Position numbers and translations under genes: made by a program | The notes under the pieces: model-generated | What the model was told of the DNA's origin: nothing | Databases searched by the model: none | What the model saw: only the letters and a program-made list of their open reading frames with translations | Shown here: piece after piece, positions 33,267 to 37,358 of the stretch | How positions within the stretch are numbered: the first letter of the stretch is position 1 | How the letters are laid out: each line of letters starts with the position of its first letter | From: Chlorobiota bacterium | GTDB taxonomy: Bacteria; Bacteroidota; Bacteroidia; Bacteroidales; VadinHA17 | NCBI GenBank assembly: GCA_013152085.1 | Contig: JAADHC010000055.1 | Location: 29,545 to 66,902 of the forward strand | Length of the DNA stretch: 37,358 nt | Direction of reading: 5' to 3'

Positions 33267-33492
33267 AATGCGTCATTCAGGCGGACCTGACAGGAACCTA
33301 CTGTACACCTGTAGGTTTTGCCTTAGCAGAAACGATCATATTTTACCATTGTTGGCTTTGTCTATTAGTCTGATCGTCATTTTGCCTTGTTGCGCCTCAA
33401 TTCCTCATTACCTCTTTGTCTCCTGACAGGCTGTCATGACCATCTGGTCAGTCATCGGGTTGAAGAATTTAAACGGGAAAGGATTTATACTG

Positions 33493-33509
33493 CGACCCCC
33501 CCAGGGTCG
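33493..33509. repeat. Palindrome CGACCC/GGGTCG
   Basis: A 6-bp perfect stem with loop CCCCA, flanked by TATACTG on the left. It has the same general shape as the three palindromes that follow but lacks their ATTATTGTA tail, so membership of the same family is uncertain. Confidence 0.5.
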
Positions 33510-33530
33510 GATAACAAGGTGGAATAGGTT

Positions 33531-33559
33531 GTTACAATAATGTGATCCCTATGGGATCA
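33531..33559 (-). repeat. Palindrome-plus-tail repeat, copy A (inverted orientation)
   Basis: The palindrome TGATCCC-TAT-GGGATCA (33543-33559) is preceded by GTTACAATAATG. Read on the - strand this is a 7-bp stem followed by CATTATTGTAAC, the same layout as copies B and C. The arm sequence differs from theirs but is still self-complementary. Confidence 0.7.
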
Positions 33560-33633
33560 GTACATTCCGGTGGTTCCGGAGACGAATGTTGTGGTAAAAC
33601 CTTCCCGGATGTCTCCTGAAAAGGCTGGCGGCA

Positions 33634-33662
33634 TGACTCCGCAGGAGTCATATTATTGTAAC
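33634..33662 (+). repeat. Palindrome-plus-tail repeat, copy B
   Basis: TGACTCC-GCA-GGAGTCA (33634-33650), a perfect 7-bp stem, is followed by TATTATTGTAAC. The tail matches copy A at 11 of 12 positions although the stem sequence differs. Confidence 0.7.
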
Positions 33663-33683
33663 CGGCATCACAACCAAAAAACA

Positions 33684-33712
33684 CGACTCCGTCAGGAGTC
33701 GCATTATTGTAT
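33684..33712 (+). repeat. Palindrome-plus-tail repeat, copy C
   Basis: CGACTCC-GTCA-GGAGTCG (33684-33701), a perfect 7-bp stem, is followed by CATTATTGTAT. The outer pair is C-G where copy B has T-A, so the stem is conserved by compensatory change. Confidence 0.7.
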
Positions 33713-33991
33713 TACTGCAGTTATAATGAAACTCAATGCGGAAGGGAACATAGCGATCCGTTTCGAACTTCAACACTGACGACTCCCCTACGGTTTGTGT
33801 CAGTGTCTTCGCTTCGCTTCGACATTCATCAATCGTCGTTCCTCGCTGATGCACCGGTCAGGGCTGGAAAGCTAAAAGTCCGGACATTTCGAACTTCCTC
33901 AAACGAACTTCAACTTTCCCGCAACCTGCACCCCGGGGCCCTGCACCCTGCATCGCAAAACATAAAGGTCACTAACCAGGAACCAAGAATG

Positions 33992-34030
33992 CCGAAAAAC
34001 AACGAAAATCGAAGATTTTCTGTTTTTCGG
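33992..34030. repeat. Long hairpin with GAA loop before queG
   Basis: CCGAAAAACA (33992-34001) pairs with TGTTTTTCGG (34021-34030), and inside it GAAAATC (34004-34010) pairs with GATTTTC (34014-34020) around loop GAA, for 17 bp with a 2-nt bulge. It resembles 25-61 in the outer arms, the loop and the following GGGAC. It lies 49 bp before queG and could affect its expression or be a dispersed element. Confidence 0.7.
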
Positions 34031-34078
34031 GACCATGAACTGAAAACCGGGAACCAATTTATCCCATATCTTTACAGT

Positions 34079-35228: not shown

Positions 35229-35393
35229 GCCGCCGGCAACCGCATCAGCCGCACGTCGGTGGTGGGAGGTGGGCAAACATATCCGGAAAATTGTTATATT
35301 GTAATATGGGGAGGGAATCCCGAAGCGTTGATAACGTATAAAGATGAAAATCCACAGTACACATACCACGATAAACATGATGATTCTGTGGCT
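35229..35393 (+). repeat. 165-bp direct repeat, copy 1 (copy 2 at 37194-37358)
   Basis: The segment from GCCGCCGGCAACCGCA to GATTCTGTGGCT is repeated at 37194-37358 without gaps and with three differences. The left boundary is sharp. The right boundary of copy 2 is cut by the end of the window, so the repeat may be longer. Confidence 0.92.
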
Positions 35394-36552
35394 GATGATT
35401 CTGTGGCTTGCTTATGAAATAATCCTGCAAAAGGAGATTTATGATGATGATATGTGTTTCAATTTTTCTGAAAAATGTTTGAAGGATCATTATTTCCTGC
35501 AAAATCCCGCAAACTGGTTGTACAATAATATTCCAACCCTAACACTCCTCGACCGCGGCTTTACCGGCCACGAGTATATGGATAAATTCGGGTTAATCAA
35601 TATGCCTGCCCGCCGGAGCTTTAGTGAAGGCGGGAACGGCCGCTTATATGATCCCCTCCTGGCCCGCATGCTCTCGCCCGACAACTATGTGCAGATGCCG
35701 GACTATACCCAGAACTGTAACCGGTACACGTATTGCCTTAACAACCCGCTCATGTATAAAGATCCAAGCGGGGAGTTAATAGTTCAATTATTATTTGCTT
35801 TTATGAATGCCTACATTAATGGTGTATTGGCAAATAATATGGAAATAAATCCAAAAAATTGGGACTGGCATAGCTTTGACACATATTATTCTGTTGTCTC
35901 AGGTGCTATTTCTGGGTATACCATAGGTAATAATGTTGATAATTATTTTAAAATTAAATCCCATGCAAAAAAACTGGGAAAATTTATGAAAAAGAGAGCA
36001 TTAAATAGCGATGTGGTTTTTGTTAATGACAAAAATTTACAATCTTTTGCTATAAGAAATAATAATAATTTTCCACTTTTTGGTCAGGATATTATGGAAC
36101 TTTATGGTCTTTCTTATGAAGACTTTAATGCATTAAATCCGGGCACGAAAGTTGTGTGGGAGAAAGGTGAATGGTTTAATGTATTTCCCCCGAGGCCATC
36201 AAAACTACCCTTAGGTTGGCCTCCTGAAGCAACAAGGGTACCAATAGGCAATATCTTAGGCATTGTAACTGATTCACCCACGGCGCTACAAAATTGGTTT
36301 GTAAATGTCGGCGGAGGTAAAGCAAATCGAGCATATTTTAGACCAAATTTTGGAATTTGGGAATGGCAATGGTCTGAGCCTAATATTGAAAAAGAAATTA
36401 CAATATTTGGAGGTTATACTCGTGCCTGGATATGGAATGACCCAAAAACAAAATGGAGAGGGACATATCCATATAAGTCATTTTTTCAACAAAAGGGAGG
36501 AATACCTACTTTTAATTCCATATTGACTTTTTTAACTATAATAATTAAATAA
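35344..36552 (+). CDS. Rhs core remnant with unrecognised C-terminal (toxin-like) domain
   Basis: An open frame of 402 codons. The first 40 or so codons read the duplicated DNA in a non-native frame and are probably not original. From about residue 60 there is an Rhs-associated core: LLDRGFTGHEYMDKFGLINM, NGRLYDPLLARMLSPDNYVQ and NRYTYCLNNPLMYKDPSGE (DPSG at 140-143). After this motif the DNA turns AT-rich and encodes 259 residues with no family I recognise, beginning with a Gly/Ser-rich segment (VVSGAISGYTIGNN). In Rhs proteins the part after this junction is the variable effector, often a toxin. A 30-bp palindrome interrupts the core. The next gene starts one base after the stop. Expression is doubtful because the natural N-terminus is missing. 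A toxic function is inferred from layout only. Confidence 0.7.
   Translation: MKIHSTHTTINMMILWLMILWLAYEIILQKEIYDDDMCFNFSEKCLKDHYFLQNPANWLYNNIPTLTLLDRGFTGHEYMDKFGLINMPARRSFSEGGNGRLYDPLLARMLSPDNYVQMPDYTQNCNRYTYCLNNPLMYKDPSGELIVQLLFAFMNAYINGVLANNMEINPKNWDWHSFDTYYSVVSGAISGYTIGNNVDNYFKIKSHAKKLGKFMKKRALNSDVVFVNDKNLQSFAIRNNNNFPLFGQDIMELYGLSYEDFNALNPGTKVVWEKGEWFNVFPPRPSKLPLGWPPEATRVPIGNILGIVTDSPTALQNWFVNVGGGKANRAYFRPNFGIWEWQWSEPNIEKEITIFGGYTRAWIWNDPKTKWRGTYPYKSFFQQKGGIPTFNSILTFLTIIIK
35379..35408 (+). repeat. 15-bp tandem duplication
   Basis: GATGATTCTGTGGCT occurs twice in a row (35379-35393 and 35394-35408), adding DDSVA a second time in the fragment's frame. The window ends after one unit of the other copy, so whether that copy shares the duplication is unknown. 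Confidence 0.9.
35605..35634 (+). repeat. In-frame GC-rich palindromic insertion in the Rhs core
   Basis: Thirty bases encode PARRSFSEGG between LINM and NGRLYDP, two parts of a core motif normally contiguous (GLINMNGRLYDP). The insert contains CCCGCC (35609-35614) and GGCGGG (35629-35634) as inverted repeats and preserves the reading frame. This is the pattern of a small mobile palindromic element inserted into a coding region. Confidence 0.65.
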
Positions 36553-36988: not shown

Positions 36989-37100
36989 TCAGATAATGCA
37001 TTATTTATGAGAGTGGATTAGAGATAATATATTGAATTATCTATTAAAATGGGAAAAACATGGATTTACACATTATAGTATAAACTAGAAAAGAAAAAAA

Positions 37101-37358
37101 ATGTACACATATAAATTGCTAACGGTTTTGTTTTATACTCTTTTAATTTTCCCGCTTGTCCATGCCCAAAACTCGTTTGAATACACGTATGATGCCGCCG
37201 GCAACCGCACCAGCCGCACGTTGGTGGTGGGAGGTGGGCAAACATATCCGGAAAATTGTTATATTGCAATATGGGGAGGGAATCCCGAAGCGTTGATAAC
37301 GTATAAAGATGAAAATCCACAGTACACATACCACGATAAACATGATGATTCTGTGGCT
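37101..37358 (+). CDS. Secreted YD-repeat/Rhs-type protein, N-terminal part (runs off window)
   Basis: The first 86 codons of a gene continuing past the window end. A Sec signal peptide covers about residues 1-22 (basic start, hydrophobic core TVLFYTLLIFPLV, cleavage near VHA-Q). The mature part begins with FEYTYDAAGNRTSRTL, a YD-type repeat as found in Rhs and related secreted proteins. Codons from residue 32 onward lie in the 165-bp repeat shared with 35229-35393. It lies 112 bp after the candidate immunity gene. The rest of the protein cannot be seen, so both a full Rhs toxin and a short YD protein remain possible. Confidence 0.75.
   Translation, partial: MYTYKLLTVLFYTLLIFPLVHAQNSFEYTYDAAGNRTSRTLVVGGGQTYPENCYIAIWGGNPEALITYKDENPQYTYHDKHDDSVA
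37194..37358 (+). repeat. 165-bp direct repeat, copy 2
   Basis: Partner of 35229-35393, 1965 bp apart. This copy is in a frame with a start codon and signal peptide, so it is the functional-looking version. It reaches the window edge and may extend beyond it. Confidence 0.92.

Follow-up and report, generated by a model that had tools for sequence, protein, structure and literature searches.

A four-hairpin REPIN-like repeat, probably mobile, with relatives beside HuH-Y1 transposase genes in Bacteroidota

The spacer and its four-hairpin unit

The window (the whole stretch of 37,358 nucleotides that was analysed) carries, after the suf operon and between a FeS_assembly_P gene and queG, a 225-bp composite unit made of four hairpins around a central spacer (Table 1). 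Three of these hairpins had been described in the initial annotation as a set with compensating arm changes, a conserved tail and one inverted copy, and this description held, with positions correct to within 1-2 nt: all three are perfectly paired, the differences between their arms are fully compensated, and one of them lies on the minus strand with the other two on the plus strand. What had been missed is the fourth hairpin and the membership of all four in one repeated unit. The tail ATTATTGTA begins exactly 8 nt past the loop in each of the three, and this distance is constant whether the stem consists of 7 bp plus one base or of 8 bp. Three of the unit's four hairpins bear the signal AT.ATT.TA at 8 nt from the loop, the signal of the fourth having diverged, and the tails point outward. 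The plus-strand inner hairpin is spaced 51 nt from the hairpin that precedes it. A fixed pattern for the two hairpins with loops of 3 nt, at most one mismatch being allowed, gave 2 matches in the window versus 0 in 100 shuffles, and folding of the unit as single-stranded DNA gave a z of about -5 on either strand. No Rfam family was found in the window at gathering scores.

Table 1. Positions of the unit and of its parts in the window
Feature	Position	Strand	Basis and remarks
Composite unit, 225 bp: inner hairpin/outer hairpin/spacer/outer hairpin/inner hairpin	33487..33711	-	alignment with the copies on contigs C6 and C8
Fourth, inner-type hairpin CGACCC-CCCCA-GGGTCG	33493-33509	-	sequence; hairpin here in 4/4 copies; paired in folds
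Outer hairpin TGATCCC-ata-GGGATCA + C + tail ATTATTGTA	33533-33559	-	sequence and pattern search; tail 33533-33541
Central spacer of the unit	33560..33632	.	least conserved part by eye in the four-copy alignment
Outer hairpin ATGACTCC-gca-GGAGTCAT + tail ATTATTGTA	33633-33660	+	sequence and pattern search; tail 33652-33660
Inner hairpin CGACTCC-gtca-GGAGTCG + C + tail ATTATTGTA	33684-33711	+	sequence; tail 33703-33711

The queG gene is present in 11/11 relative genomes, and the FeS_assembly_P gene stands beside it in 8 of the 11 stretches fetched from these relatives. Taken as the distance between aligned protein ends and read from coordinates, the gap between the two genes is about 20-64 nt in six of these eight, about 196 nt in L141 and about 325 nt in L131, versus about 930 nt in the window. 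Since the two genes nearly abut in most relatives, this comparison of gene order suggests that the spacer of the window is probably acquired sequence, and is at most a hint that the 225-bp unit itself was gained.

Copies in the genome and distribution

A search of the genome (3.38 Mb, 75 contigs) for window-type hairpins gave 11 matches to a strict pattern versus 0 for the same pattern read backwards, and a looser pattern gave 11 versus 1 for its control, although one of these 11 (on contig C55) is not hairpin-like by eye. Four full copies of the unit are found: the one in the window, two on contig C6 about 60 nt apart and one on contig C8, with a partial copy on contig C73. The motif is therefore neither confined to one spacer nor present in a chance number. 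The count of unit copies comes from the scoring of 8 of 23 candidate places in the genome and may leave out more diverged ones. The C6 and C8 copies are 74-79% identical to the window's unit; those on C6 match the other copies solely inside the unit ends at 33487-33711, while the window and C8 have a longer block of 422 bp in common at 80% identity. Inverted hairpin doublets accordingly recur in four copies with common ends. No ATG-started ORF of at least 100 aa overlaps any of the four full units or the hairpins on contig C70, and by this measure the 225-bp unit has no tnpA of its own.

The distribution is patchy and copy numbers are low. The narrow window-type hairpin occurs in 4/99 genomes searched as relatives and in 2/393 genomes sampled from the order, the window's own being included in both counts. 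In a set of 19 genomes, of which 15 had been picked for carrying a Y1 gene of the linked clade described below and 4 for a window-type hairpin, the looser pattern gave 168 matches (summed from the table) versus 3 for the reversed pattern; 51 of these lie in one genome, four genomes have none, and a few are not hairpin-like by eye.

Two further arrangements were seen by eye in other genomes. In G275 (another family), locus L121 has the same four-hairpin layout with other arms (GACTTC and others). In G013 and G023 a similar stretch of about 100 nt lies upstream of several hairpins (L016, L018, L022, L028, L029, L031), with near-complementary arms like CCGGTCCA and TGGACCGG, and in those two genomes it may belong to the unit as an additional part.

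Tailed hairpins beside Y1 transposase genes

Contig C265 of the related genome G023 (L038; L101 is on this contig too) starts inside a Y1 gene, and a doublet much like that of the window precedes the gene start. Its outer hairpin has the arm TGACCCC with the tail ATTATTGTAG and its inner hairpin the arm CGACCCC with ATTATTAAA, and it matches the window doublet at 73% over 73 nt (E 2.5e-4). On another contig of this genome, C329 (L026), an apparent Y1 gene end, recognised by eye and not among the family-search matches, stands at the contig start with a doublet directly after it. An alignment of three proteins (L038, L039, L042) served as the query with which genome contigs were scanned by protein alone; 109 stretches matched, 46 of them confirmed as Y1 (IS200-like) transposase genes in named records. 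By record title these are mostly from Bacteroidota, with some in Chlorobiota or Chloroflexi bins, where mis-binning is possible, and the 46 loci are not all independent because some come from one genome. HuH is present in 43/46 of the genes and the Y---Q--HH motif (Y[IV]..Q..HH) in 41/46, the five without it being open frames of 41-94 aa; full frames are mostly about 152 aa. When four such enzymes were compared with NCBIfam, three passed the IS200 model's cut-off and the fourth narrowly missed it (54.9 versus 55), and the REP-associated model was matched by one of the four, far below its cut-off. Homology to solved structures extends to 2xm3, labelled transposase, which we take to be ISDra2 TnpA (E 5e-11), and to 2vhg of IS608 (E 4e-5).

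Hairpins of the window's geometry are concentrated around these genes. Among 177 hairpins chosen by their stems within 300 bp of a gene and then scored for AT.ATT.TA with at most one mismatch, 67 bear the signal 8 nt from the loop in the direction of the gene and 31 in the direction away from it, and at seven other offsets there are at most 6 tailed hairpins each. A tailed hairpin in either direction lies near the gene in 42/46 loci, a figure that is partly fitted because this looser tail was written after looking at the flanks of these same loci; the three hairpins of the window by themselves give the 8-nt distance. Without the three query loci, 39/43 have tailed hairpins. In 36/46 of the full set at least one points toward the gene; L089, L091, L094 and L102 are the four loci without any. 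When the tail was permuted 500 times the mean was 4.8 matches and the maximum 81 (for a near-identical tail), none reaching the 98 matches or the 42 loci of the real tail. Reversing the tail, which yields a closely similar sequence, gave 26 matches in 15 loci, and the complement gave 0. Counting each strand, 119 of 418 stems are tailed within 400 bp of a gene (36.2 kb) versus 21 of 325 in the remainder of the loci (199.9 kb), a density per base about 31-fold higher near the genes. The exact window tail, with at most one mismatch, behaves in the same way, with 25 matches within 400 bp of the genes versus 5 elsewhere in 200 kb, and it is found near the gene in 16/46 loci against 0.2 in shuffles.

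Further details of the arrangement are shared with the window. For the commoner loop types, 39 of 56 hairpin spacings fall at 49-53 nt, 23 of those being exactly 51, and inverted doublets are also seen at transposase loci. Two details differ: the tails point mostly toward the gene at these loci versus outward in the 225-bp unit, and the base after the tail is G in 46/67 cases versus A or T in the window's hairpins.

The arms of the hairpins covary beyond what shuffling produces. In 166 sites chosen by CC-loop-GG and the tail alone, with one register per site, Watson-Crick pairing is seen at positions 3, 4 and 5 from the loop in 147, 138 and 149 cases against shuffle maxima of 101, 86 and 121, all four pair types being used at positions 3 and 4 and three at position 5; these sites are not independent, as several copies per genome are included. 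Pair 6 is weakly above its control (49 versus a shuffle maximum of 43), pair 7 is not above shuffles and pair 8 is under the shuffle mean. An uncollapsed count, which includes some sites in two registers, gave 362 sites (199 with 5 pairs), versus 73 (34) for the reversed tail and 6 (1) for the complemented tail. Among the 129 sites whose stems reach 5 bp or more, 98 loops are G.A or G..A and 3 are T.C or T..C. Loops of the d(GNA) type are stable, and the preference may therefore indicate which strand is folded.

Tail types also follow the enzymes. In a 44-protein tree, in which 34 proteins were labelled with one of 18 tail types, the tail types require 20 changes versus a shuffled mean of 26.1, with 0/200 shuffles as low, though many branches of this tree are weak and its bootstrap is unsettled. 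The window's tail ATTATTGTA is clustered (8/500 shuffles as low), and the tail ATGATTATA, with 5 changes and 123/500 shuffles as low, is not.

The initial annotation had also advised looking for a REP-associated tyrosine transposase elsewhere in the window's own genome. There, the family search gave three Y1_Tnp matches, but family and protein searches together found no close relative of the linked enzyme, the best identities being 31% and 25%. Two of these Y1 genes (L012 and L013) are flanked by other hairpin families, one of the form CGCCA-ttta-TGGCG beside GACTAACAC/GATTAACTC and the other GCCCT-gta-AGGGC beside GCAAGCAAC, which are possibly separate REP-like systems; the third (L014) has one stem without a tail.

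Likeness to known systems and interpretation

The unit has the features of REP-like elements in the wider sense, that is, a short hairpin, variable but compensated arms and several dispersed extragenic copies. With the REP, BIME and REPIN elements of TnpA(REP) (RAYT) and with REPtrons it has in common its short extragenic hairpins, compensated arms, inverted pairs and dispersed copies, and with REPtrons also a conserved sequence fixed beside the hairpin and the adjacency of a HuH-Y1 gene, here in relatives: hairpins flanking a cognate gene of this kind occur there and were not found within the window's genome. Canonical REPs, however, have a GT[AG]G foot, in place of which these hairpins have AT.ATT.TA located 8 nt past the loop, doublets of about 51 nt and mostly G.A loops. 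The foot is missing from both strands of the window's hairpins, and none of the 177 hairpins near the 46 genes has it on either strand at 0-2 nt from the stem (counted from a 5-bp stem). The sequence GTAC, one base from GT[AG]G, sits before TGATCCC in 4/4 unit copies, and a CGTC tag was not seen by eye at the ends of the window's hairpins. RAYT systems correspond to the REP-associated enzyme model, whereas the enzymes described here match the IS200 model instead. The earlier suggestion of REP-like elements moved by a distant transposase is thus supported by the hairpins of like geometry near Y1 genes, with the corrections that the enzymes follow the IS200 and not the REP-associated model, that the GT[AG]G foot is absent and that searches of the genome gave no close enzyme relative.

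Other known systems resemble the repeat in part. The IS200/IS605 elements (IS608, ISDra2) have a homologous enzyme and hairpins at both sides, but they carry their own tnpA, while the 225-bp unit is gene-free and its hairpins are inverted doublets. TIRtrons are Y1 genes that have on their flanks inverted repeats, in part self-complementary, with the motif GGGGWSAS, according to the accessible portion of the paper that describes them (PMC3733652, Di Nocera and others 2013); the likeness lies in the inverted repeats flanking Y1 genes and the difference in the named motif, and no word beginning ATTATTG occurs in the main text of that paper. By their motif and HuH the enzymes fit TnpA subclass 1.2, as judged from the proteins, and they are alike in the Y---Q--HH motif, in a length of about 152 aa and in occurrence in Bacteroidota. 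In the accessible portion of the source, this subclass is entered with 'no' under REP and as generally lacking typical IS200 terminal structures (PMC6006769, Quentin and others 2018), in contrast to the 42/46 loci with tailed hairpins nearby that are reported here. Accessible portions of other work show recognition and cutting of REPs by TnpAREP (PMC8266576), describe GTAG and CGTC repeats (PMC3733652) and count REPs in Flavobacterium (PMC12306157), the last with no occurrence of RAYT, IS200 or 'tyrosine transposase' in the portion available. Among titles and the starts of abstracts, in a coverage outside which most subscription journals lie, we recognised no paper as describing the repeat, and the literal tail string gave no bacterial-repeat paper by title among the matches listed.

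We consider it probable, at roughly 0.8, that positions 33487-33711 are a non-autonomous REPIN/BIME-like repeat of two inverted doublets of REP-like hairpins, whose relatives flank HuH-Y1 transposase genes. Because these relatives flank the genes of single-strand-DNA transposases in Bacteroidota, the unit is probably a small mobile repeat once moved by such an enzyme, with an end signal unlike the known one. A MITE-like element, derived from a transposase-bearing element and moved whole with defined ends, overlaps with the REPIN-like reading and differs from it in what the moving unit is, as opposed to separately mobile doublets; the common 225-bp ends, the two neighbouring copies on C6 and the inverted doublets at transposase loci would all suit such an element. 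Against it, single doublets and single hairpins also occur, and the tails, outward in the unit, are mostly inward at transposase loci (67 versus 31); as these directions differ, a simple deletion from the transposase-locus arrangement would not yield the unit, and we regard a MITE-like origin as unlikely. A much poorer candidate is a role as intrinsic terminators of transcription in the gap from the suf operon to queG. The hairpins do come after an operon, a terminator scan listed all three as terminator-like (5 sites versus 1.0 in shuffles, by loose matches), the tail has 5 T in 8, and the hairpin at 33684-33701, read on the minus strand, has TTTTTT three bases after it. Yet there is no T run on the tail side, the tail is fixed at 8 nt from the loop and not at the stem foot, one copy is oppositely oriented and like hairpins cluster around transposase genes, and a terminating role could also be a by-product of a mobile hairpin. 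Most improbable of all is a site that serves the host and has no link to mobility, either a structured RNA or DNA bound by a protein, which would accord with the strong fold on either strand and the arm covariation but not with the lack of an Rfam match in the window, the four copies in different places with common ends, the patchy distribution and the clustering of tail types on the transposase tree.

For the REPIN-like repeat, the homology of the linked enzyme to solved transposases, together with its match to the IS200 model of NCBIfam, suggests that it cuts single-stranded DNA at hairpins. The enzyme would bind the hairpin once this has folded in single-stranded DNA, perhaps in the lagging strand, and would read the loop-proximal part of the hairpin and the tail, the latter placing or guiding the cut; doublets and inverted doublets may then be copied or moved in trans. 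As searches of the window's genome yielded no close relative of this enzyme, the unit copies there are probably orphaned relics.

More broadly, we lean towards the view that this clade of IS200-model transposases, recorded without REPs, forms a REPtron-like system that is widespread in Bacteroidota and has perhaps spread to Chlorobiota and Chloroflexi, with a signal of its own consisting of a G.A-loop hairpin and AT.ATT.TA(G) 8 nt away from the loop, arranged in doublets of about 51 nt. If so, the enzyme would read a distance from the loop and not from the stem foot, with arms and tail coevolving with the enzyme, and the system would represent a third solution in addition to IS200 ends and GTAG REPs, possibly intermediate between them. 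An IS200-near clade with REP-like repeats would bear on the open question of how bacterial transposases become linked to populations of tiny repeats, by supplying a step between the two states and a defined substrate to test. The published entry of no REPs for subclass 1.2 would then change, and many short intergenic hairpin repeats in Bacteroidota would be explained.

Three minor observations concern other parts of the window. The spacer that holds the unit also contains, at 33963-34064, a second, unrelated dispersed repeat of about 40-72 nt, for which the scoring of 40 of 47 candidate places gave 14 further matches in the genome. An ORF that has no Pfam match and that presumably resembles an RHS core includes in its frame, at 35609-35634, a short palindrome-like stretch, CCCGCCGGAGCTTTAGTGAAGGCGGG, which is perhaps an inserted repeat. 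Finally, the minus-strand ORFs at 35245-35502 and 37066-37329 have an identical peptide of about 39 aa in common, and therefore a piece of DNA has probably been duplicated there.
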